Assembly (NCBI GenBank): GCA_022340265.1
Contig: JAJDOH010000082.1
Coordinates: 1 to 64,000 of the forward strand
Length of the DNA: 64,000 nt
Source of the DNA: Deltaproteobacteria bacterium
Lineage (GTDB): Bacteria; Desulfobacterota; DSM-4660; Desulfatiglandales; Desulfatiglandaceae
Direction of reading: 5' to 3'
Under the pieces are notes generated by a model. That model was given only the letters and a program-made list of their open reading frames with translations, made no database searches and was not told where the DNA came from. Positions 5,214-17,179 of the stretch are shown here, in pieces; the stretch's first letter is position 1, and every line of letters begins with the position of its first letter. The position numbers and the translations under genes are program-made.

Positions 5214-7310
5214 ATGTCAGATAAAATATACCGGCTGGGCTGTGATATCGGCGGCACCTTTACCGATTTTGTCCTGCTCAATGACCGGACAGGGGAACTC
5301 ACCATCAACAAGTGTCTGACCACGCCCAGTGATCCGTCCGATGCGGTGGAATACGGTATCCGGCAGTTGGATAAGATGGTTCCCGGTTTCGTGAAAAGCC
5401 TGGATGAGGTGATTCACGGCACCACCCTGGTGATCAATTCCATCATCGAACGAAAGGGCGCCAGAACCGGTTTGATAACCACCTTAGGGTTCAAAGACGT
5501 GCTGGAACTGGGCCGTGAGATCCGCTACGCGCCCTACGATGTATTCGCCGAGTTTCCGGAGCCCCTGGTCCCCCGCAGCTTTCGTTTTGAAGTGGACGAA
5601 CGGGTGCGAAGCGACGGTACGGTGTTAAAAGCCCTGGACAAAAATGAAGCGCGGCAGGTGGTGCGCCGGATGTTGGATATGGGTGTTGAATCCATCGCCG
5701 TCTGTCTATTGAATTCCTTTGAAAATCCTTCCCACGAAGAGCAGATCAAGGAGATTATTCTGGCGGAAGCACCGGATATTTCGGTCTGTATCTCCTACGA
5801 GGTGCTGCCCCAGATCCGGGAGTATGAGCGGAGCAGTACCACGGTGACCAATGCCTATGTAAAGCCGCTGACCGGAAAATATCTGTACAAACTGGCCCGT
5901 CGCCTGGAATACCTGGGATCCGCGGGCAAGCTCTTCATCATGCTCTCCAGCGGCGGCATTACCTCCATCAAGACGGCGGCGGAGTTTCCGGTGCGCATCA
6001 TTGAATCGGGTCCCACCGCCGCAGTCATATCCGGTCAATATTACGGAAAGCTGTTTGATATCCCTGAGATTTTCTGCTTTGACATGGGGGGGACCACTGC
6101 CAAATCGTGCCTCATTCAGGGAGGGGTGGCCAGCGTGGTGCCCACCTTTGAGGTGGGCCGGGTGCAGCGGTTCATGAAGGGGAGCGGTTTGACCATTCAG
6201 GTGCCGGTGGTGGATCTCATGGAAATCGGCGCCGGCGGCGGCAGCATCGCCCACGTGAGCAAGCTGGGAACCCTCCAGGTGGGGCCTGAGAGTTCCAGCG
6301 CGGAACCGGGTCCCATCTGCTACAGCAGGGGCGGGAAATTACCCTGCGTCACCGATGCGGACCTTGCCCTGGGATACCTGGATGCGGACTATTTCCTGGG
6401 CGGCGAGATGAAGCTGGACAAGGATGCCGCCATGGAAGGGATTGAGAAGTCCATCGCCGAACCGTTGGATGTTTCCAGCGTGCAGGCGGTCTGGGGCATC
6501 CATGACCTCATCAACGAAACCATGGCAGGCGCCGCCAAGACCCATATCGCCGAAAAAGGGGGGAATCCCAAACTGGTGACGGTCATCGCTTTCGGCGGGG
6601 CCGGGCCGGTACATGCCTATGGTCTCACCAAGAAGCTGGGGGCCAGGCGGTTGATCGTGCCCCCCAATGCGGGGGTGGGGTCGGCCCTGGGGTTTTTTAC
6701 GGCCCCAAGAGCCTTTGACCTGGTCAGAAGCCACAAAAGCCCGCTTCTTGATGCGGATTTTGCGGAAATTGAAAAGATCTTCTCCAGAATGGAAGCGGAA
6801 GGGAGCAGGACTTTGGACAGCGGTGCGGAAAGTGGGGAGATCCGTTTTGACCGGTCCGTGGATGTGCGGTTTGTGGGTCAGGGATCGGAAACCAACATTT
6901 CCGTTCCGGAGGGGGATTTTTCCAGCATTGATCCCCAGGAGATTCGCAGGCGCTTTGACATTGTTTATGAAAAACTCTACGGCCGGACCTATCCGGATTC
7001 CGCTGTTGAATTCATCAACTTCAAGGTTCGGGCCAGCCTGCCGGAACGCCTTTTGAAACTGCCCGAGCTCAGAGAGACCGGCTACACCCTCAAAGATGCC
7101 GTCAAAGGAAAGCGACAGGCCTATTCGGGCATTGCCGGCGCGTTTGTTCCCCATACGGTCTATGACCGGTACAAGCTGAACAGCGGTGCCCGATTTCAAG
7201 GACCCGCCATCATTGAAGAACGTGAATCCACGGTGATTGTGGGTGAAGACGCCTCGGTTTCCGTGGACAAATACGGTTTTCTGTGGATTGAATTGGATGG
7301 TCGGAATTAA
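5214..7310 (+). CDS. Hydantoinase/oxoprolinase family subunit A (HyuA-like ATPase)
   Basis: ATP-binding subunit of the hydantoinase/5-oxoprolinase/acetone-acetophenone carboxylase superfamily, 698 residues, which matches HyuA proteins. These enzymes use ATP to phosphorylate an amide or enol oxygen and so open lactam or imide rings or carboxylate ketones. Visible: N-terminal CDIGGTFTDF (residues 9-18, ASKHA-type phosphate loop), HGTTLVINSIIERKG near 65, the second nucleotide motif FDMGGTTAK near 289, TDADLALGYL near 382, and the C-terminal GPAIIEERESTVIVG. GGAGAGGAG precedes ATG 5214. It forms a pair with hyuB, 10 bases downstream. The neighbouring Mo-hydroxylase suggests it acts on a hydroxylated N-heterocycle (lactam). 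That is inference; carboxylase subfamilies cannot be excluded without phylogeny. Confidence 0.9.
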   Translation: MSDKIYRLGCDIGGTFTDFVLLNDRTGELTINKCLTTPSDPSDAVEYGIRQLDKMVPGFVKSLDEVIHGTTLVINSIIERKGARTGLITTLGFKDVLELGREIRYAPYDVFAEFPEPLVPRSFRFEVDERVRSDGTVLKALDKNEARQVVRRMLDMGVESIAVCLLNSFENPSHEEQIKEIILAEAPDISVCISYEVLPQIREYERSSTTVTNAYVKPLTGKYLYKLARRLEYLGSAGKLFIMLSSGGITSIKTAAEFPVRIIESGPTAAVISGQYYGKLFDIPEIFCFDMGGTTAKSCLIQGGVASVVPTFEVGRVQRFMKGSGLTIQVPVVDLMEIGAGGGSIAHVSKLGTLQVGPESSSAEPGPICYSRGGKLPCVTDADLALGYLDADYFLGGEMKLDKDAAMEGIEKSIAEPLDVSSVQAVWGIHDLINETMAGAAKTHIAEKGGNPKLVTVIAFGGAGPVHAYGLTKKLGARRLIVPPNAGVGSALGFFTAPRAFDLVRSHKSPLLDADFAEIEKIFSRMEAEGSRTLDSGAESGEIRFDRSVDVRFVGQGSETNISVPEGDFSSIDPQEIRRRFDIVYEKLYGRTYPDSAVEFINFKVRASLPERLLKLPELRETGYTLKDAVKGKRQAYSGIAGAFVPHTVYDRYKLNSGARFQGPAIIEERESTVIVGEDASVSVDKYGFLWIELDGRN

Positions 7311-7320
7311 GGAGGAAACC

Positions 7321-9042
7321 ATGGGGCAACACTTTGATCCCATCACAATCGAAATACTCTGGCGGCGGCTTATTTCCATCGTGGATGAAGCGGATAGCGC
7401 TGTTTCGCGCACGGCATTCTCCAGTCTTTTGAGGGATGCGCACGACTACACCTGCATGTTTACGGACCGGAAAGGGCGTGAGCTGGCCCAGGGGTCTTTC
7501 GCCACCCCCGGACAGTCGGGCGCCATGGCCCTGGGGATCAAAAAACTGGTGACCCAGATTCCGGAAAACAGCTATCATCCGGGCGATGTCTACATCACCA
7601 ATGACCCCTGGGCCCTGGCGGGGCATTTGAACGATGTGTGCGTGTTCAGTCCCATCTTTCATCAAGAAAAACTGACCGCTTTCACCGCCTGCGTGTTTCA
7701 CCATTCGGACATCGGCGGCAGAGTTTCCTCTGACAATCATGACGTTTACGAGGACGGTCTGTTCATCCCCCTGGTGAAACTCTATGACGGGGACCGGATC
7801 AACCAATCGGTGGTGGAAATGATCAAGTGGAATGTGCGGACCCCCGACGAGGTGATCGGAGATATTCGCAGCCAGATCGCCGCCAACCACGTGTGTGCCG
7901 AGAAGATTTCCCAGATGCTGGATGAGTACCGGTTGGAAGGGTTGGACGATCTGGCAGATGAAATCATCAGCCGTACGGAAAAAAGCATGCGGGAAGCTAT
8001 TTTGAAAGTCCCGGACGGCGTATATCGTGCCGAAGGGATCGTGGAACAGGGCAAGGGCAAAGGCGATATCGTCATCAAGGCCGCCGTGCATGTCAAAAAA
8101 AGTGACATTATGGTGGATCTTGAAGGGTCTTCCCCCCAGGTGGACTGGGGCGGCAATGTGGTCTTCAATTTTACCTACGCCTATGTGTTCATGGCCATGA
8201 AAAGCATGTTCGACCCGGACATTCCCAACAATGACGGCTGCACGGCACCCATTTCCATGAGGGCGCCCCTGGGGAGTGTTGTGAACTGCAAGTTCCCGGC
8301 GGCGGTGGCGGCCCGCATGCAGATCGGGCATTTTATAACGGAGATCATCTATCGGGCCATGGCGGATGTGCTGCCGGACCGGGTGATCGCGGGGAGCGGC
8401 GGAACGCCCGCCAATATGAATGTGCTCTACGGTCGGCACGGAGACGGACGGCCCTGGCATTCGGTGCGGATCCGTGGCGGCGGCATGGGTGCCAGCGCCC
8501 GGGCCGACGGCAATTACGTCTACATTTTTCCCGCCAATGGGGCCAACACCCCGGTGGAGATTCTTGAGAGCGATACCCCGCTTATTGTTGAAAAACGGGA
8601 GCTGCTCATCGACTCCGGCGGCATCGGTCGCATGAAGGGGGGTTTGGGAAGACGCATGGTTCTGAGGATTCCCGATGATTCATATGCGCCGCTGCCGCCT
8701 GTGAACCTGGGCATCCAGTCCGGCCGGCACCAATATGCCCCGGAAGGTCTCTTTGGCGGCGGCCAGGGTGCCAAGGCCGCTTTTCTCGTCAACGGCGAAC
8801 CCGGCAACCCCTACGGTCTCAGTCAGCTCAAGCCCGGTGATCTGGTCACCATCGATGCGGCCGGCGGCGGGGGATACGGCGACCCCCTGGAACGGGATGT
8901 GGAGCGTGTGGAAGGGGATGTGCGGGAAGGGTATGTGAGCCTTGAGGCCGCTGAAAAAGACTACGGTGTAATTATCGATTCCGCCACGGGCCTTGCCGAT
9001 CAGGAAGCCACCCTAAAGATGCGGGAGACCCTGAGAGGGTGA
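7321..9042 (+). CDS. Hydantoinase/oxoprolinase family subunit B (HyuB-like)
   Basis: Partner subunit of the HyuAB-type ATP-dependent amidohydrolase or carboxylase, 573 residues. ATG 7321 is chosen because GGAGG lies 6 bases upstream, directly after the hyuA stop; the frame is open further upstream, but only inside hyuA. Family signatures are DPITIEILWRRL at residues 6-17, RDAHDYTCMF, NDPWALAGHLNDV, HHSDIGG, the Gly-rich GAGG-type region GGTPANMN, and the C-terminal AGGGGYGDPLERD that ends most HyuB proteins. The last 343 bases are repeated in part at 9885-10125, beyond a toxin-antitoxin module. This copy looks intact and is the functional one. Confidence 0.9.
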   Translation: MGQHFDPITIEILWRRLISIVDEADSAVSRTAFSSLLRDAHDYTCMFTDRKGRELAQGSFATPGQSGAMALGIKKLVTQIPENSYHPGDVYITNDPWALAGHLNDVCVFSPIFHQEKLTAFTACVFHHSDIGGRVSSDNHDVYEDGLFIPLVKLYDGDRINQSVVEMIKWNVRTPDEVIGDIRSQIAANHVCAEKISQMLDEYRLEGLDDLADEIISRTEKSMREAILKVPDGVYRAEGIVEQGKGKGDIVIKAAVHVKKSDIMVDLEGSSPQVDWGGNVVFNFTYAYVFMAMKSMFDPDIPNNDGCTAPISMRAPLGSVVNCKFPAAVAARMQIGHFITEIIYRAMADVLPDRVIAGSGGTPANMNVLYGRHGDGRPWHSVRIRGGGMGASARADGNYVYIFPANGANTPVEILESDTPLIVEKRELLIDSGGIGRMKGGLGRRMVLRIPDDSYAPLPPVNLGIQSGRHQYAPEGLFGGGQGAKAAFLVNGEPGNPYGLSQLKPGDLVTIDAAGGGGYGDPLERDVERVEGDVREGYVSLEAAEKDYGVIIDSATGLADQEATLKMRETLRG

Positions 9043-9063
9043 TGGGAAGATGTCCGTTTAGGC

Positions 9064-9426
9064 TCACGCTCCCAGGCTTTCATCAATCAAACTTTCATAA
9101 GGAATACCCATACCGTAATGCAATTTCACGATCTGGTTCATTGAAAGACGCCGCTTCCGATTTAATACGTCGCTTACCCGGCTCTTGGGGCCCATAAACG
9201 CTTCAAGATCTTTTCGCCGCAAATCCATCTGTTCCATCCTGAAGAGGATGGCTTCGACCGGATCGGAAGGGGGCATCGGGTAATGATTGTCTTCGTAGGC
9301 CTCAACAAGAATCATCAACACATCTAATTCGTCGCCTTCCGGTGTGCCGATTTCAGATCCCCAAAGTGATTCAATCCGTTTGAGGGCTTGGTTATAGGAT
9401 TTTTTATCCCGGATCGGTTTTATCAT
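9064..9426 (-). CDS. higA: HigA-type antitoxin, HTH domain
   Basis: Antitoxin of a HigBA type II module, 120 residues. The N-terminal half (SYNQALKRIESLWG, GDELDVLMILVEAYED) and the C-terminal helix-turn-helix (MDLRRKDLEAFMG followed by SRVSDVLNRKRRLS, about 73-102) match the COG5499/HigA class, in which the N-terminus contacts the toxin and the HTH represses the shared promoter. It lies 2 bases downstream of the toxin gene, giving the toxin-first order typical of higBA. It is inserted in antisense orientation between hyuB and a second hyuB tail. The antitoxin is expected to bind near the promoter at 9738-9766, but I see no clear operator palindrome. Confidence 0.85.
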   Translation of the reverse strand: MIKPIRDKKSYNQALKRIESLWGSEIGTPEGDELDVLMILVEAYEDNHYPMPPSDPVEAILFRMEQMDLRRKDLEAFMGPKSRVSDVLNRKRRLSMNQIVKLHYGMGIPYESLIDESLGA

Positions 9427-9428
9427 AA

Positions 9429-9731
9429 CTATTTTATCTCCTTGGCATTTATGGCATTATATTCATTATGAGTGCCGACGAACTTGATGTACATGGCCTG
9501 CCTGGGGTAATCCATTGCGCACACGATACGGTAGTCATTCCCTTTAACATTAAACACAACCCGGTTGTTGCCCAAAAACGAAGCATGGCGGAAAGTATTT
9601 TTGACATCCTGCGGCGTGGCCCATTTCATCTTTGCACAAAAGTGATACCATTCATTTAAAAAGGGTTGCGACTTTTCGTTCCCTGATTTTTCCCAATATT
9701 GTCGAAGTCGGCTTTTGGCAATGATTCTCAT
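9429..9731 (-). CDS. higB: HigB-type toxin (ribosome-dependent mRNA interferase)
   Basis: RelE-superfamily toxin of the HigB class, 100 residues, expected to cleave mRNA on translating ribosomes. Typical features are the N-terminal MRIIAKSRLRQYWEK, WYHFCAKMKWATPQDVKNTF in the middle, NRVVFNVKGNDYRIV, and the C-terminal YIKFVGTHNEYNAI, with the conserved Lys/Arg/His residues of the family. A promoter-like pair ends only 6 bases before this ATG, so the mRNA may be nearly leaderless. Together with higA it is the only accessory module inside an otherwise metabolic region. Confidence 0.87.
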   Translation of the reverse strand: MRIIAKSRLRQYWEKSGNEKSQPFLNEWYHFCAKMKWATPQDVKNTFRHASFLGNNRVVFNVKGNDYRIVCAMDYPRQAMYIKFVGTHNEYNAINAKEIK

Positions 9732-9737
9732 CAGCTC

Positions 9738-9766
9738 ATCATAGTGTTCCCAATATGGTAATGCAA
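9738..9766 (-). promoter_or_regulatory. Candidate sigma-70 promoter of higBA
   Basis: On the minus strand TTGCAT (9766-9761) and TATGAT (9743-9738) are 17 bases apart. The -10 box ends 6 bases before the higB ATG at 9731, so transcription should begin at or just beside the start codon. There is no good Shine-Dalgarno sequence in the remaining space. Confidence 0.5.
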
Positions 9767-9869
9767 GTTATTTTCCGCAAGTTTATCAGTTTCCGGCCCT
9801 ACATAAAGTAGTTTATCCATCGTCATCTGGACTGCGGTATCCTGCACAACGGTTTTGCAAAGGTGAAAT

Positions 9870-10124
9870 GTGGAGAGCGCGCCCCTTCCACCGGTGAACC
9901 TGGGAATCCAGTCCGGCCGGCACCAATATGCCCCGGAAGGCCTTTTCGGCAGCGGGTACGACGATCCCCTGGAACGGGATGTGGAGCGGGTGGAAGAGGA
10001 TGTTCGGGAAGGGTATGTAAGCCTTGAGGCCGCTGAAAAAGACTACGGTGTAATTATCGATTCCGCCACGGGCCTTGCCGATCAGGAAGCCACCCTAAAG
10101 ATGCGGGAGACCCTGAGAGGGTGA
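9870..10124 (+). pseudogene. Decayed second copy of the hyuB 3' end
   Basis: This 84-codon stretch repeats the C-terminus of hyuB. Similarity starts near 9885 (matching 8695), breaks where about 115 bases (in frame, roughly 39 codons) are missing between the FGGG and GYGDP motifs, and resumes to the stop. The first segment differs at roughly one base in eight and the next 60 bases at about one in twelve, while 10023-10125 is identical to 8941-9043 over 103 bases. The missing piece is bounded in hyuB by two GGCGGCGG tracts, which fits a microhomology deletion. There is no upstream hyuB body, only the higBA module, so it cannot make a working protein. It is probably the remnant of a paralogous hyuB, part of it homogenised by gene conversion. 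Confidence 0.85.
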
Positions 10125-10279
10125 TCGGAAGAGGTCCCCCATATAGCTTTTCCAATCTTGATTTGGTCCGTAACTTCACTCCTTCGTCTCCAGGCTGCCC
10201 CAGGCAACGTGTTCCTGACGAAGCGAGCCACCGGACTTGTCAAGGATTCGGTGGTCAACGTCTCCCAGCCTGCATGCCC

Positions 10280-10804
10280 TCAGCCAAAAGAGAGTCTCCA
10301 GCATTCTTCAGTGAGGGTCTTTCCCCATACCTGGCTGGTCTTGGTTTCAACGAGACGGAATCCGGCAGCTGTATACAGGTTGCGGGCCGAAAGGAGAAAA
10401 TCAATAGTCCATAGCATGACGCACTTGAATCCCCTCTCCTTTGAAAACCGGACAGCCTCATGGACCAGCTGCGTTCCGATGCCTTTCCTGCGCTCTTTGG
10501 GCTCTACAATGAGCCATCGAAGCTGGGCCGTGGTGTCATCGCGCCTGACAACAGCCACGGATCCGGAAAACTTCCCCCGGGTTTCGGCAATCCAGAGGTG
10601 GTCATCGGCGGAAAAGGTTTCAATGAAATTTGCCATGCCTTTTGCCACATAGGCGTCAAACTCATGGTTGAACCCGTATTCCCTGGCATAGAGTACCCCG
10701 TGGCGGTGGATCACGTATCCGATATCTCCCGGTCTGTGGGAACGGAGGGTGACAAGAGCCGGTCTTTTCTGGTCAGGATCCAGGATCTGTTCTATGGTAT
10801 CCAT
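10280..10804 (-). CDS. GNAT-family N-acetyltransferase (back half of a MarR-GNAT fusion)
   Basis: Acetyl-CoA-dependent N-acetyltransferase, 174 residues. Motif A is RWLIVEPKERRKGIGTQLV near 94-112, with RRKGIG as the pyrophosphate loop; SARNLYTAAGFRLVETK follows. The start RPGDIGYVIHRHGVLYAREYG is typical of the second half of MarR-GNAT fusion regulators. Codons before ATG 10804 still read in frame as LSLAQA, resembling the end of a MarR domain, but a TAA stops that frame 9 codons upstream and no MarR-like sequence is seen beyond. The gene therefore looks like a decapitated fusion. No clear ribosome site precedes the ATG. Substrate unknown. Confidence 0.75.
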   Translation of the reverse strand: MDTIEQILDPDQKRPALVTLRSHRPGDIGYVIHRHGVLYAREYGFNHEFDAYVAKGMANFIETFSADDHLWIAETRGKFSGSVAVVRRDDTTAQLRWLIVEPKERRKGIGTQLVHEAVRFSKERGFKCVMLWTIDFLLSARNLYTAAGFRLVETKTSQVWGKTLTEECWRLSFG

Positions 10805-11095
10805 GGCCTGAGCCAGGGATAGTCGGTTTTAAGGAACCTGTTTGTGATCATCCCCAATTTCCAGGTATAAAATCTGTTAAATGACCGGATACGGTTAATG
10901 ACCATATAAGACTTCCCTTTACCCTTGGCGTAATGGCAATATCATAAACCGAATAGCTTGAAATTTTCAAATAAATACTTGAAAATGGAAACTAAAAAAT
11001 GAATGGTGTGCATCACATAACGAGAAAGGCCATTTGGCAACACTTCGGAGGAGCGGTAATGGGCATTAAAAGAACAACGTCTTATCATCTCACCG
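10805..11095. other. Gene-free AT-rich gap
   Basis: This 291-base gap lies between the start of the GNAT gene and the end of the sigma-54 regulator gene, both on the minus strand. It holds an AT-rich patch with a TTGAAATTTTCAA near-palindrome around 10960-10972 and a repeated TTGAAA. I see no coding sequence, tRNA or clear terminator. Any GNAT promoter should lie here. Confidence 0.5.
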
Positions 11096-12448
11096 TCACC
11101 TTCTGAAATCCGCCGGGTCCAGATTGTATTTCTTTAATAGATCGTATAGATCCGCCCGGTATTTTCCGGAGAGTTCGGAAGCCTTGCTGATGTTGCCCAG
11201 GGTAAGCTCCATCAATTGGACCAGATAGAGTTTCTCAAAATCGCTCTTTGCGCTCTTAAAGGATTTCAAGCCTTCATCTTCAAAAGGCCGCCCTTTTAAA
11301 ATCAAGTCTTCCGTGATGATATCCTGGGTCGTCATGGCAACCGCGCCTTCGACCGCATTTTCAAGTTCTCTGACATTACCCGGCCACGCGTACAGCATCA
11401 TTTTTTGCAGGGCCGCCGGGGTAAATCCTTTGATCTTTTTTTCGGATTTTTTCATGTTTTTATTGAAGAAAAACTTGGCCAACAAAGGAATATCTTCCTT
11501 TCTTTCCCTAAGCGGCGGTATTTTAAGAACAATAACGTGAATACGGTAGAACAGATCCTCCCGGAATTCCCCTTTTTCGACGGATTCTTTCAATATACGA
11601 TTGCTTGTGGCGATAAAGCGGGCATCCACCTTCCGGATAGCCCCCCCACCCAATGGATAAAATTCCTTTTCCTGCAAGACCCGCAGGAGTTTTGCCTGCA
11701 TGGACAAGGGCATTTCCGATATTTCATCCAGGAAAAAAGTGCCGCCGTCCGCTTGAGCAAGGAGACCCTCCTTGTTCTGACTGGCGCCGGTGAAAGCTCC
11801 TTTTTTGTGGCCGAACAGTTCGCTCTCAAACAGATTTTCCGGAATGGCCGCACAGTTAATCGCCACCAAAGGCCCGTCTTTTCTCGCGCTGGCCACATGC
11901 AAGGTCCTGGCAATCAGTTCTTTTCCCGTTCCGCTTTCACCTTCGATATAGACGTTCGAATCGGTTCTGGCGGCCTGTGCGACTTGGGCCAGAAGATCCT
12001 GCATGGTCTCACTTTTTCCGATGATGTTTTCAAACCCCAAATGGCTTTCAACCAGGTTTTTAAGTCGTTTCACCTCATTGGACAGCCGCCGCTTTTCAAG
12101 ACAATTGTTGATTTGCAGCAAAAGCTCCCGGTAATCGAATGGCTTGGTGATATAGCTGTGAGCCCCCTTGCTCATGGCTTCCACCGCGCTCTGAATGGTG
12201 CCATAGGCCGTCAGAATGATAATGGGCAATTCGGCATTGATTTGGTGAAGCGCTTCCATCAATTGAATGCCGTCTTCTTCAGAGAGCTTCAAATCCACCA
12301 GGGCCAGGTCAAAGGGCTCCGCCGCCGCTTCGGCCACTGCCTTTTCCGCATTGGGAGCAGTGACGATTTGAAAGCCTTCGGCTTCCAGCCGCATTCTAAT
12401 GACTTTCAGAACATTCCGATCATCGTCTACCACCAGAATCCTGCTCAT
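11096..12448 (-). CDS. glrR: Sigma-54-dependent response regulator, GlrR (QseF)-like
   Basis: NtrC-class activator of 450 residues. The receiver domain (1-120) has the acidic pocket VVDDD, phosphoacceptor Asp52 (ALVDLKL), Thr80 and Lys102. The AAA+ domain has Walker A GESGTGKE (170-177), GAFTGA (217-222) that contacts sigma-54, and Walker B FLDEIS. A Fis-type helix-turn-helix lies at about 415-445. The tail GNISKASELSGKYRADLYDLLKKYNLDPADF closely resembles the end of enterobacterial GlrR (YfhA); only short pieces are quoted here: SELSGKYRADLY and KYNLDPADF. The kinase-lipoprotein-regulator order is also that of glrK-qseG-glrR. It should open -24/-12 promoters; one such site lies ahead of the glycosyltransferase at 16470-16455. 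Confidence 0.85.
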   Translation of the reverse strand: MSRILVVDDDRNVLKVIRMRLEAEGFQIVTAPNAEKAVAEAAAEPFDLALVDLKLSEEDGIQLMEALHQINAELPIIILTAYGTIQSAVEAMSKGAHSYITKPFDYRELLLQINNCLEKRRLSNEVKRLKNLVESHLGFENIIGKSETMQDLLAQVAQAARTDSNVYIEGESGTGKELIARTLHVASARKDGPLVAINCAAIPENLFESELFGHKKGAFTGASQNKEGLLAQADGGTFFLDEISEMPLSMQAKLLRVLQEKEFYPLGGGAIRKVDARFIATSNRILKESVEKGEFREDLFYRIHVIVLKIPPLRERKEDIPLLAKFFFNKNMKKSEKKIKGFTPAALQKMMLYAWPGNVRELENAVEGAVAMTTQDIITEDLILKGRPFEDEGLKSFKSAKSDFEKLYLVQLMELTLGNISKASELSGKYRADLYDLLKKYNLDPADFRR

Positions 12449-12470
12449 TTTTCATTCTTTCCCTTAACCT

Positions 12471-13076
12471 TTAGGGCGTTGTCTTTCGCTTCTTCTTCTC
12501 AATTCTCAAATCGATCATCTTCAGGGTCTCAATTTGCTTCTTGAGTTCCTCGATCTGATGCTGTGATGTCTTTATTTCCGACTTCAGGCTCTTTACCTGG
12601 CTTTGCAAACGACTGTTCATTTTCCGGCTTTTGAGGATATTCTCCTCTTGCAATGTCAATTTCCGGGTCAGCGCCTCAATTCGACGATCCTTTTCAATCA
12701 ATGTTTCAAGGGTTAAAATCCAGGTTTCCGATTCCTGTCTCAGAGAGGTTTCGGGGAAATCTCTGATAACCGACTGAAAATACGTCTTTGACTTCTCATA
12801 ATCCAAATCCGGATTCCGGGGATGGGCCAGAATCAGTCCCCGCCGGTAGAGGTCTGCCTCCCCCATCCCACCGGGAGATTTCCCCGACATATTCCCGCCA
12901 TTGGACGGTGCCTTCCACGAATCCCCCAGACTGGGATTTTGCCCTCCGGCGGAACGCCCTGCTTTCTGCGATGTTGTTCCACCTGTCCCACACCCTGCGA
13001 CCGTTCCAACAACGACTATGAAACAGGCAAGGTAAAAAAGAAGGTACTTCCTTTTCCCGGCGCGCTCTCCGCCCAT
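12471..13076 (-). CDS. QseG-like outer-membrane lipoprotein with coiled coil
   Basis: Lipoprotein of 201 residues with a basic N-terminus, a hydrophobic stretch (11-27) and lipobox VAGC, lipid cysteine at 29. Gly/Ser-rich residues 30-65 are followed by a YRRGLILAHPRNPDLDYEKS segment and a long coiled coil (about 110-195, LTRKLTLQEENILKS and QSQVKSLKSEIKTS). It lies between the kinase and the sigma-54 regulator, exactly where enterobacteria carry qseG (yfhG), whose product helps control the kinase. The start overlaps the kinase 3' end by 61 bases in another frame; there is no later ATG before the signal peptide. Sequence similarity to QseG is weak, so the assignment rests on position, lipobox and coiled coil. 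Confidence 0.7.
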   Translation of the reverse strand: MGGERAGKRKYLLFYLACFIVVVGTVAGCGTGGTTSQKAGRSAGGQNPSLGDSWKAPSNGGNMSGKSPGGMGEADLYRRGLILAHPRNPDLDYEKSKTYFQSVIRDFPETSLRQESETWILTLETLIEKDRRIEALTRKLTLQEENILKSRKMNSRLQSQVKSLKSEIKTSQHQIEELKKQIETLKMIDLRIEKKKRKTTP

Positions 13077-14473
13077 ATAATTCCTCCATGTTCCGTCACG
13101 ATATGTTTAGCGATGGAAAGGCCTAAACCGGTGCCTCGAGCGGTTTCTTTCCCGTGTTCGATTCGTTTGAAACGATCAAAAATCCTTTCCAGGTTTTCCT
13201 TCTGAATCCCCGTGCCGGTATCGGAAACTGAAATCTGAATACAATCCTGGCCGTTACGCTTAACCTCTGTATTCACCGAAACCGTATCCCCCTTTGAAGA
13301 AAACTTCAGCGCATTGCTGATCAGATTTTCCAATACCTGTTTAATGCGGGCCTCATCCATTTTCACCTGAGGCAAATCATCGGAGAGTTTCAATTGTAAA
13401 CGAATTTCTTCTCTGATTGCAATGGGCGCCAGTTTCAAAACGGTTTCTTGAATCAGGGGGGGCAACGGACAGGGTTCAAACACATATTCCATCATTTTAG
13501 CTTCCATTCTGGAAAGATCCAGAATCCGATTGACCGAGCCGATGAGCCGGTCACACTCCTGCTGTGTAATGGTCAGCAGTTCCTGCTGGCTCTCGCGGGA
13601 ATCGGCGTATGTGCCGTCCAGCAGCATGCCCGTGGCCTCTTTTATAACCGTTAGAGGAGTGCGCAGTTCGTGGGACACATGGCTGATGAAATCGATCTTC
13701 ATTTCATCAAGCTCCTGTAACCTTTTGCTCATGACGTTAAAGTGATCGGCCAATTCCTTTATTTCCGGTGGTGCGGAAATAGGTTGGATTGCTGTAAATT
13801 TTCCTTTGGCGATTTCTTTTGTTTGCTCTTGCAGAAGCATTATGGAACGGTTGATGCTTTTCGTGTTAAAAAAAGAAATCATGATTCCCAAAAAGATCAC
13901 CAGTCCGGCCGAGGCTGAATACACCTTCAATACCTGCGAACTGATGGCCTGTGAGGTTTGAATTTTTTCATCCCGATCCGAACGTGCCACTTTCACCATT
14001 TCTTTCAGTTTTCCATTAATTTCATCGATGGTTTGCTCTTTCTCCGCTTGATATACCTGCTCTGGAGGCGCTTGGGCTATTTTTGGGAACCCCGTTTCCT
14101 TGAGGAAAAATGAGACGTAACGCTTATACAATTTATTCACTTCCCTAAACAGTTCTTTTTCCCTGGAGGAATCCATCAGAAGGCCCAGCTGGTTCATTTC
14201 CTTGGTGCAATATTCGCTGATCTCAAAGAACTGTTTTAAGAAGTCGCGATCGTGGGATATGAAAAATTTCTTTTCAAACCCTACCTGAGAAAATATTGTA
14301 TCGGAGAGGCTTTCGATGAGATGGATGGTCGCGCCGTCAATTAAAGCGATATTCCGGGTGAGGCCGTTTAATTGGTTGAGTTTCAAAGTGACGTAAGCGC
14401 CCAGAAAAACAACCAACAGCATCATGGCAACATATCCGAAGGTCAGCCGTTTGAAAATCGTAAATTTCGTCAT
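13016..14473 (-). CDS. glrK: Sensor histidine kinase, GlrK (QseE)-like
   Basis: Inner-membrane kinase of 485 residues. TM1 is about 10-31 and TM2 about 184-204, with a periplasmic helical sensor of about 150 residues between them. HAMP spans 204-257. The H-box FISHVSHELRTPLTV has His268; NLISNALKF is the N-box, and DTGTGI and GTGLGLSI are the G-boxes. The partner is the sigma-54 regulator at 11096-12448. In enterobacteria GlrKR senses envelope stress and activates glmY and rpoE; the signal here is unknown. The ribosome site before ATG 14473 is weak (GGACATGAATC). The coding end runs 61 bases into the lipoprotein gene. Confidence 0.83.
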   Translation of the reverse strand: MTKFTIFKRLTFGYVAMMLLVVFLGAYVTLKLNQLNGLTRNIALIDGATIHLIESLSDTIFSQVGFEKKFFISHDRDFLKQFFEISEYCTKEMNQLGLLMDSSREKELFREVNKLYKRYVSFFLKETGFPKIAQAPPEQVYQAEKEQTIDEINGKLKEMVKVARSDRDEKIQTSQAISSQVLKVYSASAGLVIFLGIMISFFNTKSINRSIMLLQEQTKEIAKGKFTAIQPISAPPEIKELADHFNVMSKRLQELDEMKIDFISHVSHELRTPLTVIKEATGMLLDGTYADSRESQQELLTITQQECDRLIGSVNRILDLSRMEAKMMEYVFEPCPLPPLIQETVLKLAPIAIREEIRLQLKLSDDLPQVKMDEARIKQVLENLISNALKFSSKGDTVSVNTEVKRNGQDCIQISVSDTGTGIQKENLERIFDRFKRIEHGKETARGTGLGLSIAKHIVTEHGGIIWAESAPGKGSTFFFTLPVS

Positions 14474-14687
14474 GATTCATGTCCAAAACAAAAAAGGATA
14501 GATGCTCCGGGACGTAACCCGAAATTTCCGGAAAGAAGAAATCTTGTCACCATTCTCGATTATCAGAAGCGACGGGAAAGGTCAAAAACATAAATTCTGG
14601 ACGGTATCCATTGAATTTTCAAAGGAGAAGAATTTGAGGGGGGGCCATTACTGCAAACAGGGGTTTTTGCGGCAAAAAACACATGAG
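14474..14687. other. Gap between glrK start and a strong hairpin; possible small-RNA region
   Basis: No convincing protein gene is present. It contains the upstream region of glrK and a short AT hairpin at 14663-14680 (GTTTTTGC pairing with GCAAAAAAC). A weak -24/-12-like plus-strand sequence occurs near 14636-14651 (GGGGGCCATTACTGCA). In Escherichia coli the GlrR-controlled small RNA gene glmY lies just upstream of glrK, so a small RNA ending at the 14688-14727 terminator is conceivable. I recognise no GlmY sequence. Confidence 0.3.
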
Positions 14688-14727
14688 AACGGGGGAAACG
14701 GGATCAGTCCCTTTTCCCCCGTTTTTT
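14688..14727 (+). terminator. Strong hairpin with T-run (intrinsic terminator, plus-strand polarity)
   Basis: AACGGGGGAAA (14688-14698) pairs with TTTCCCCCGTT (14713-14723), and an inner GGGA/TCCC stem closes a TCAG loop, giving about 15 pairs with one mismatch. Six T follow on the plus strand (14722-14727). No plus-strand gene is upstream of it. On the minus strand it would follow the glycosyltransferase, but the nearest T-run in that direction is about nine bases past the stem. Confidence 0.65.
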
Positions 14728-14750
14728 GGGGAACATCCTTATTCAGGGGT

Positions 14751-16301
14751 TCACAGGATTCCGATGATCCCCGGATCCATATCTTTTAAGGGAATGGCCA
14801 CCCGCAAAGAATCAGCCACTGGCAATAAGCGTTGTGCATGTCTCTTTTTGGCAGGATAAACTTTCATCTTTTTCTCACTCTGACGGGTGAGCCATCCGGT
14901 CCGATGGGGTGTTATCAGGGCGTAGACGGGAATCCAGAAAAGCCCCATCGTCCAGAAAAGCCCATAGGCGTAGGCCCACAGCCCTTCCGAACTCCGGCAA
15001 CGCCACCAATAGAATACTGCGGAAAGCGTCGAATAGACCAATACTCCCACAAGCGCACTCAGACCGAATTCAAAGGGTTTGAAAAACAGACATCCCAGCG
15101 TTCCAACCATTAGAAACGGCGACTTGACCATGGTTAAGAACTGAAGCGCAAAATTGATTCGGGCGCCTGTTGCTGATTTTTTGCGGAAACGCGTGAAGAT
15201 GAAAGTGCTCATCACCAGGGTTTCCCGTATGTTGCTGCGGGCCCAGCGAATAAACATTTTGCAGAGGTTTTTGTACCTGACCGGAACATTGGTATAGACC
15301 GTTGCGTTTTTCTGATAGTGGACGGAATATCCCTGCCGCAAAATCAAATTCGTCATGGCCCTATCCTCGCCGATGTTGGCGGGTTTTCCAAAAAACTTCT
15401 GGCCCAGCCACGTGGGCAGGACTTTCAAAACAACGTCCCTGCGGTAGGCAGAAAGCGCCCCGGGCGTGCATATGACGGTATCCACCATGCTTTGACTGGC
15501 ACGAAGAAAGTCAAAGCTGAATAGAAACGAGACGTCCAGCATTCTGGGAATCACGCCTTCCCGCGTGTTGAGAACGCGGACATTACCCGCCACGGCGCCG
15601 ACCATGGGGTTCTCAACGAAGGGGCTGACCATGCACCGCAGCGTTTGGGGATCGACGATGGAATCACTGTCCACGGTGATCAGCACTTCGCCCCGGCTCT
15701 GCTTAAACCCCTCGTGAAGGGCGTGCCTTTTGCCCGCGTTTTTAGGGAGGCGTATGGTTTTGAGTCTGGAACCCAGCTCCTTTTTGGCTTTTTTGATCCA
15801 GAACCAGGTATCATCAATGCTGCCGTCATCAATGACGATGATATGTATCTTATCTTCAGGATAATCACCGTCGGCGATGCTCCTTAACGTCTTTAGAACC
15901 TGCTTTCCTTCGTTGTAGGCGGGTACCACAACGGTGCAGGTCGGCAGCCGGTCGCCGGAAACAGCCGGTGTTGCGCGGTACATTATGACCAGCGCCACTC
16001 GCCAGACAAAGGCCAGGAGATTGATTATCAGAAACGTCATAATCAGAATTGCAAAACTTTCGCCCAAAGGGCCTTCTCGCAGCAAATCCCTGCCGAGTTG
16101 CAGTTCTTCCCAATTCAGGCAAGCCGCTGTAACAACGGCGATCATGCTCAAAAAGATGAGAATTTTTAAAAGGAAGGTCATTTTCAAACGGGAAGCCTTT
16201 GCATCCGTATCGTGAATATCATCCTCCATATTCTTCCGGTTGCCGGTTCGTCCAGCCGATGGTGAATTTGGAAACTGCGTGGTATTAGCTGTCAACAACA
16301 T
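14751..16301 (-). CDS. Membrane glycosyltransferase family 2, PgaC/NodC/HasA-like
   Basis: Processive-type GT2 polysaccharide synthase of 516 residues. The hydrophilic N-terminus (1-40) is followed by two TM segments (about 41-61 and 82-107), a cytoplasmic catalytic domain and at least three C-terminal TMs (from about 372 on). Catalytic signatures are VVVPAYNEG (124-132), DDGSIDDT (158-165), DSDS (212-215), GEDR (312-315) and RW in MFIRWARS (353-354). The usual QxxRW motif has Met in place of Gln. It should polymerise or transfer an N-acetylhexosamine-type sugar across the inner membrane. ATG 16301 has AGGAGG 7 bases upstream. A good sigma-54 promoter lies about 155 bases ahead, next to a sigma-54 activator operon. 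The product could be an exopolysaccharide; no polysaccharide export genes are alongside. Confidence 0.82.
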   Translation of the reverse strand: MLLTANTTQFPNSPSAGRTGNRKNMEDDIHDTDAKASRLKMTFLLKILIFLSMIAVVTAACLNWEELQLGRDLLREGPLGESFAILIMTFLIINLLAFVWRVALVIMYRATPAVSGDRLPTCTVVVPAYNEGKQVLKTLRSIADGDYPEDKIHIIVIDDGSIDDTWFWIKKAKKELGSRLKTIRLPKNAGKRHALHEGFKQSRGEVLITVDSDSIVDPQTLRCMVSPFVENPMVGAVAGNVRVLNTREGVIPRMLDVSFLFSFDFLRASQSMVDTVICTPGALSAYRRDVVLKVLPTWLGQKFFGKPANIGEDRAMTNLILRQGYSVHYQKNATVYTNVPVRYKNLCKMFIRWARSNIRETLVMSTFIFTRFRKKSATGARINFALQFLTMVKSPFLMVGTLGCLFFKPFEFGLSALVGVLVYSTLSAVFYWWRCRSSEGLWAYAYGLFWTMGLFWIPVYALITPHRTGWLTRQSEKKMKVYPAKKRHAQRLLPVADSLRVAIPLKDMDPGIIGIL

Positions 16302-16454
16302 GAAATCCTCCTCAAAATAGGCAAAAGAGCAGCCACAATTTTCTTTAACGAAACTCAGATAGGGACCGATGTCCCAACAGTTCCAAGAAGACCCTTGAAC
16401 GGCCCAATTCCTTCATTAATTTAACGGAAACCTTTCCCATCCACTCCAATACGT

Positions 16455-16470
16455 AGCAATAACCGCGCCA
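16455..16470 (-). promoter_or_regulatory. Sigma-54 (-24/-12) promoter for the glycosyltransferase
   Basis: The minus strand reads TGGCGCGGTTATTGCT. It matches consensus TGGCACG-N4-TTGCT at every fixed position except one (G for A), and the GG and GC pairs have the required 10-base spacing. Transcription would start near 16443 and give a leader of about 140 bases before ATG 16301. Confidence 0.65.
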
Positions 16471-16527
16471 ATGGATGCCAGGCAGGCTATGTCACTGATT
16501 CCACGTACTATATGGAAAAGCATGTTT

Positions 16528-16543
16528 TGGGAAGACATGTGCT
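16528..16543 (+). promoter_or_regulatory. Weaker sigma-54-like promoter facing the secreted-protein gene
   Basis: TGGGAAGACATGTGCT keeps the invariant GG and GC at 10-base spacing and the TGCT end, but lacks the CAC of the -24 box and one T of the -12 box. It would start about 235 bases before GTG 16790. It is plausible only because a divergent, better site lies 58 bases away. Confidence 0.3.
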
Positions 16544-16789
16544 TGTGAAGGTTTTTTCATACAGCAGAAGCCGGACGTCCACGCCATCAATATCCTAACT
16601 GACTTAATATGCTGCATTCTTGGGTGAAGGATTTTCCTTCACTGATTTCCAGGAAATAACGCCGTTTGTCCTTGATGAACGGGGGGAATTCCTCTATGAT
16701 TTCTGTTGGAAGAGCCTGAGATCTTTTGCCGCGTCATGGAAAACCTGGCAACAAATTCTATTGAGAAGCATTTTAGAGGGGTAAACATT

Positions 16790-17179
16790 GTGGTTGGCGT
16801 TTTGAGGAAAACCCGTTTCCTGGGTATTATGTTGCTACTTTGGGCGTCGTTGCTGGTCGGACCGGCCTACGGATCTGATCCGGTTTCCATTTCAAAACAG
16901 ACCGTAGCGCTCATGCAGACCGATGTTTCCAAAAGTAACCCGTCATATGCCCTGGGGTGTGAATATTGTAAAAATCTGGGCTATGGGCACAATGGCGCCA
17001 GGCTGGGAAACCTTTCCTTTATGGCGTACAATCCGGATACGGAAGTTTCGGTGGTGGTCTATCTGCCCCTATGGGATCTGACCGACGGCATGGAATCTTT
17101 CAAATTCTGCTTCCAAGCCATGTATGACGCCGCATATGCCGCTCTGGAAACGCTGGGCCATCCCGGAAAGCCGAAATAA
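16790..17179 (+). CDS. Small secreted protein, unknown function
   Basis: I do not recognise a family. From GTG 16790 the product has 129 residues: a basic start (VGVLRKTR), a hydrophobic signal core (FLGIMLLLWASLLVG) and a likely cleavage after AYG. The mature part has one CEYC pair near residue 49 and a later Cys (FKFCFQ), a Gly-rich GYGHNGARLGNLSF stretch and a C-terminal helix. GTG 16790 is preferred over an ATG at 16706 because GAGGGG lies about 8 bases upstream and the signal peptide then begins at once. The stop is 8 bases before the Memo-like gene, so the two are probably co-transcribed. Confidence 0.6.
   Translation: MVGVLRKTRFLGIMLLLWASLLVGPAYGSDPVSISKQTVALMQTDVSKSNPSYALGCEYCKNLGYGHNGARLGNLSFMAYNPDTEVSVVVYLPLWDLTDGMESFKFCFQAMYDAAYAALETLGHPGKPK

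Follow-up and report, generated by a model that had tools for sequence, protein, structure and literature searches.

The window analyzed here is a 64-kb stretch (64,000 nucleotides) of one contig. It comes from a draft assembly of 330 contigs that is 97.08% complete with 5.84% estimated contamination. The window contains an intact pair of genes, hyuA (5214-7310) and hyuB (7321-9042). The 3' end of hyuB is repeated downstream, and a higBA toxin-antitoxin pair lies between the two copies. The features discussed below are as follows.

7321-9042, plus strand: hyuB, encoding a hydantoinase/oxoprolinase B subunit of 573 aa, intact (Pfam Hydantoinase_B, E 2e-148)
8686-9055, plus strand: repeat copy 1, the 3' end of the intact hyuB and the next 13 bp
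8938-9043, plus strand: 106-bp tract identical to 10020-10125
9064-9426, minus strand: higA-like antitoxin gene, Xre/HigA type, 120 aa (weak matches to HigA chains; PADLOC PD-Lambda-2_B)
9073-9777: higBA segment common to G005, with 85% DNA identity, very probably a horizontally moving unit
9429-9731, minus strand: higB toxin gene, RelE-like mRNA interferase, 100 aa (Pfam HigB_toxin; PADLOC PD-Lambda-2_A, E 5e-33)
9773-9880, plus strand: scrap of an IS91-family (Y2/HUH) transposase gene, residues 38 to 73, with one internal stop codon (67% identity to the G002 transposase)
9879-10137, plus strand: repeat copy 2, a fragment of a second hyuB that lacks 111 nt in frame
10020-10125, plus strand: the identical tract within copy 2, a probable gene-conversion tract
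10164-10268, plus strand: scrap of a mazF/pemK toxin gene downstream of copy 2 (79% DNA identity to G014 mazF over 10182-10268)
10280-10804, minus strand: GNAT acetyltransferase gene, absent from this place in G003
11096-12448, minus strand: NtrC-type response regulator gene, the first downstream gene in the order shared with G003 (91% DNA identity)

The IS91-family scrap sits between higB and copy 2 and abuts the start of the hyuB fragment. The intact transposase of the congener G002 matches Pfam Y2_Tnp and Zn_Tnp_IS91. Other partial matches to this transposase in the window's own genome lie at G000:C17:102-323, G000:C319:20865-20951, and G000:C48:8704-9135. Two of these three contain stop codons, and the transposase seems to persist in this genome mostly as scraps. 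The intact G014 mazF product matches PemK_toxin (E 2e-28), and the corresponding peptide can be read in the window frame. The GNAT gene has a 70% similar stretch on a different G003 contig. Neither a recombinase gene nor an intact transposase gene was recognized between 9043 and 11096; the only transposase sequence is the inactive scrap.

The higBA pair

The higB and higA genes are intact, adjacent ORFs with the toxin first. They are convergent with hyuB, and the stop codons of higA and hyuB are separated by 21 bp. HigB matches Pfam HigB_toxin (E 1.1e-28, 99.8 bits against a cut-off of 27), and solved HigB chains match it weakly. HigA is too diverged for Pfam, with only a sub-threshold HTH_3 match. 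It matches the solved HigA antitoxin chains 5ycl and 5ifg weakly (E about 0.001) and the N-terminal part of PADLOC PD-Lambda-2_B with an E value of 4e-39.

Two features place the locus among HigBA modules: the gene for a RelE-fold HigB and the adjacent, toxin-first arrangement with an Xre/HTH HigA. It resembles the HigBA family (Pfam HigB_toxin; PDB 5ifg, 5ycl, and 6kml) in having the toxin first, a RelE-like HigB, and a HigA-like antitoxin. It differs in that the window HigA is beyond the Pfam thresholds. The PD-Lambda-2 anti-phage system consists of a HigB-like protein, an HTH-peptidase fusion, and a third component (PMC9519451). The window HigB resembles PD-Lambda-2_A, and HigA resembles the N-terminal part of PD-Lambda-2_B. 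However, HigA is only 120 aa long and has no peptidase domain, and there is no adjacent third gene. The window higBA is a two-gene relative of PD-Lambda-2, not the system itself.

A segment common to the window is found in G005, a member of another genus. It contains higBA and about 46 bp upstream and lies beside other toxin-antitoxin-like genes. No hyuB was found on that contig. The HigB proteins of the window and G005 are 90% identical (dN 0.049, dS 0.87), and the HigA orthologues have a dN of 0.075 and a dS of 0.78. With a dN/dS of about 0.06 to 0.10, the differences in both genes are mainly synonymous, so higB and higA are probably functional. The best hyuB match between the window's genome and G005 reaches only 70%. 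Since higBA is 85% identical between these genomes and lies in an unrelated context, it was very probably transferred horizontally. A recent transfer by a plasmid or virus was also considered, and no recent vector was identified. Related HigB proteins on plasmids were all below 60% identity, and those on viral contigs were at or below 51%.

Insertion sites of toxin-antitoxin loci are plastic, and the mechanism of chromosomal integration was unresolved according to a 2020 review (PMC7167474). Type II examples in plastic intergenic sites are ccd in folA-apaH and parDE in relA-mazG (PMC7167474). The window locus is like these in having a horizontal toxin-antitoxin pair in a variable intergenic site beside an unrelated metabolic gene. 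It differs in having a partial copy of the neighbor gene on the far side. The locus adds one worked example of how a chromosomal toxin-antitoxin pair comes into a variable intergenic site and stays there.

The site in related genomes

The only outgroup with the operon available within the genus is the congener G003, and polarization of the site is limited to this genome. G003 shares 9 kb of the operon region (~85% identity) until 24 bp past hyuB. Its hyuB is syntenic with the window hyuB at ~85 to 87% DNA identity. The alignment with G003 continues through the 3' flank of copy 1 to ~9063, so copy 1 is in its native place. Beyond this point, G003 contains 9.1 kb of different genes before the shared response regulator. 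This block includes biotin-carrier-like and carboxylase-like ORFs (by eye from translations) and is essentially missing from the window's genome. Synteny returns at window position 11101 (91% identity), with contig and orientation unchanged.

Neither higBA nor a second hyuB tail was found in G003. A sequence-only reading of the window had proposed looking in relatives for the locus in its empty state. In G003 we have a relative with hyuB and without both additions. Its single hyuB tail, however, leads into DNA different from that of the window. The exact empty site, with the hyuB tail joined to position 10126, was not found in any of the 61 genomes of the order or in focused searches.

Three relatives at a greater distance have, next after hyuB, the MEMO1/AmmeMemoRadiSam B gene found at position 17124 in the window. 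The differing downstream neighbors among relatives indicate that the boundary after hyuB was rebuilt several times. Relative to G013, L045, and L046, which have the order hyuB-MEMO1, the window holds about 8 kb between these genes (9043-17124). The 9043-17124 stretch includes the block of response regulator, histidine kinase, and family-2 glycosyltransferase genes common to G003. At window position 16893-16896, G003 carries about 858 bp that the window lacks.

Divergence of the two hyuB tails

The 3' end of hyuB is repeated in the same orientation as two blocks. The longer block contains 191 bp at 94% identity (8865-9055 versus 9947-10137, E about 1e-80). The shorter block contains 77 bp at 88% identity (8686-8762 versus 9879-9955). 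This direct repeat is far above chance, and no further repeat pairs were found at E<=1e-6 across the 64-kb window. The earlier reading had recognized the repeated tail and placed higBA between the copies on the opposite strand. Both observations hold, with the extent of the repeat corrected to 8686-9055 versus 9879-10137. It had given the identical end as 103 bases; the identity is real, but the longest run without a difference spans 106 bp (8938-9043 and 10020-10125) and reaches one base beyond the stop codon. Past the stop codon, the copies stay similar for ~12 bp more.

Copy 2 is a repeat of the tail, but it is neither complete nor uniform. Its gap of 111 nt removes 37 codons in frame and is flanked by GGCGGCGG-type micro-repeats. 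Outside the identical run, 17 of 144 aligned positions differ (11.8%). The body contains 15 codon differences, 13 synonymous and 2 nonsynonymous (dN 0.02, dS 0.51). Using G003 as the outgroup assigns about 5 changes to copy 1 and 9 to copy 2. Either copy resembles the other more than it resembles G003. Because the body differences are mostly synonymous, copy 2 appears to come from a hyuB that stayed functional during most of the period after its split from the resident gene. From these differences, we infer that its ancestor was a functional hyuB ~89% identical to the resident gene. In situ duplication followed by neutral decay was rejected on the same grounds, as nearly all body differences are synonymous.

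The 106-bp tail has a different pattern. It has no differences between the copies (0/106), whereas copy 1 and G003 differ at 24 of 105 sites in the same tail, above the difference in the body. The chance of such an identical run, given 11.8% divergence elsewhere, is about 2e-6. Later homogenization of the tail by homologous recombination would be the simplest explanation of the identical tract. Two mismatches within the ~12 bp beyond the stop codon, few bases in all, hint at a 3' limit to the tract; with limits at either end it would resemble a gene conversion tract.

A donor for copy 2 was also sought. No donor hyuB was found in 46 genomes of the family or in the window's own genome. The own genome contains only two other Hydantoinase_B genes, neither of which is the source, and beyond the window's own locus it showed no DNA resembling copy 2. 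A translocated piece of another hyuB from this genome was rejected. The full paralogue elsewhere that would have accounted for the second tail by simple translocation was not seen in this assembly.

The locus was compared with selfish genes that duplicate their targets. Nobusato et al. reportedly described insertion with long target duplication of restriction-modification genes in 2000. In such cases, restriction-modification genes sit between long direct target repeats (PMC3031569, PMC1643837, PMC4978471). Applied to the window, higBA, perhaps with the IS91 scrap, would have inserted at the end of hyuB and duplicated its target, and the right copy would have decayed. The likeness is that selfish, addiction-type genes lie between long direct host repeats, where recombination could delete or amplify them. 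One target copy flanks the insert on each side, G003 has a single target, and the restriction-modification genes are a precedent (PMC3031569, PMC1643837). However, fresh copies should be alike throughout, and the window repeat is truncated, with a body that has diverged mostly synonymously and a tail that alone is identical. The native flank is also on the wrong copy. The flank resembling that of G003 continues from the left copy to ~9063, and the right copy ends at ~10137. In addition, the interval contains other mobile scraps, and the pair is HigBA rather than a restriction-modification system. We consider a target duplication quite unlikely here.

An assembly chimera was also weighed. Two strain variants could have been joined through the identical 106-bp tract, which is about as long as a common assembly k-mer. 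The number of contigs and the estimated contamination of the draft are in keeping with this, and two alleles of one gene are what a strain mixture would produce. The junctions around the body of copy 2, between the IS91 scrap and the hyuB fragment and at the in-frame 111-nt deletion, do not coincide with long stretches of shared sequence and require real joins. On either side of the interval, the order along the contig also matches that of G003. A chimera is quite unlikely on this evidence.

Proposed history and possible loss of higBA

With moderate confidence, we read the interval after hyuB as a variable site rich in debris, holding a higBA that came in by horizontal transfer and a hyuB scrap that recombines. 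The parts, their divergence, and the outgroup states were observed directly, and from them we infer an order of events. The site downstream of hyuB would have gathered mobile and decaying DNA in several steps. The pieces collected would be higBA, the IS91-transposase scrap, the fragment of a second hyuB, the mazF scrap, and the GNAT gene. The fragment may have come by transfer from the hyuB of a related strain or species, or it may be a former paralogue. It would have lost its 37 codons through the micro-repeats. Its last 106 bp would later have been homogenized to the resident hyuB by homologous recombination. The history would thus have an order, in which the fragment diverged as a working gene and its tail was homogenized recently.

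A narrower version of this account names the source of copy 2. In it, a complete second hyuB, or hyuAB, was once present here and was mostly deleted when the IS91 and higBA DNA arrived, and the tails were kept alike by conversion. The body of copy 2 evolved under purifying selection, and the copies are closer to each other than to G003, both in keeping with a paralogue. A resident paralogue would also give repeated chances for conversion. However, no second close copy of hyuB was found in G003 or the other relatives searched, and no other part of a second hyuB was found in the window. A resident paralogue as the source is fairly unlikely.

In the broader account of a debris-rich variable site, the two tails may recombine with each other. 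We simulated crossovers in both repeat blocks. A crossover in the 106-bp block removed 1082 bp including higBA and left the HyuB sequence unchanged. A crossover in the 5' block gave a HyuB without 37 residues that are kept in all aligned relatives. The sequence-only reading had expected recombination to drop higBA and keep hyuB, which is correct for the 106-bp block and incorrect for the 5' block. Because no recombinase or intact transposase gene was recognized in the interval, the deletion looks one-way. As far as can be seen, a lost higBA could come back only by a new transfer.

The same reading had described a neat, potentially reversible cassette in which matching tails enclose a toxin-antitoxin module that possibly guards the metabolic locus. 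For HyuB, recombination within the identical block would indeed be a clean excision of higBA. The interval is not neat, as it also contains the IS91-transposase and mazF scraps and a second tail that is truncated and diverged. Nor does it appear reversible; no integrase, att site, or intact transposase gene was noted in it, one of the repeats is a broken fragment, and HyuB would be impaired by recombination in the 5' block. A guarding role is weakly contradicted by the relatives, as G003 keeps the operon without higBA and G005 has the same higBA without the repeat or a hyuB on its contig. A reversible guarding cassette is barely credible. Removal of higBA by recombination looks like a possible occasional loss, not a purpose-built reversible switch.

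In the variable-site account, higBA may resist deletion through an ordinary addiction effect, and addiction by HigBA could select against deletion. In Pseudomonas putida, deleting 13 chromosomal toxin-antitoxin loci did not lower fitness (PMC7280312). A stronger form would have the tails recombine often, with crossovers deleting the addictive higBA, so that only gene conversion outcomes survive. We regard this as highly improbable. If true, higBA would make a deletion-prone repeat conversion-only and keep the hyuB tail homogenized. The identical 106-bp tract with higBA in place would then be the expected trace. If the repeats do recombine, the locus may offer a natural test of HigBA self-protection from deletion, as a single case in draft data.

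HigB loci elsewhere were examined for a similar arrangement. The idea that genes of this HigB family generally sit between copies of a neighbor's tail was rejected. Only 2 of 22 HigB loci, the window and L168 of G019, are closely enclosed by a direct repeat of more than 100 bp. A third locus, L163, has repeats of 112 bp separated by about 2.9 kb, and the other repeats are short.

L168 is on contig C457 of G019. It contains a HigB-like gene and a short partner between 128-bp direct repeats (99% identity; 1253-1462 and 2620-2747). The repeats start inside the 3' end of a small neighbor gene, and the left one is accompanied by another tandem copy of 85 bp. On either side there are small gene pairs that resemble BrnT/BrnA by eye. 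Elsewhere in G019, the repeat occurs only as fragments.

L163 (G007:C1:290197-290493) contains a PD-Lambda-2-like pair. It encodes HigB and a 427-aa antitoxin with HTH and Peptidase_M78 (ImmA/IrrE) domains. The locus is surrounded by several degenerate direct repeats.
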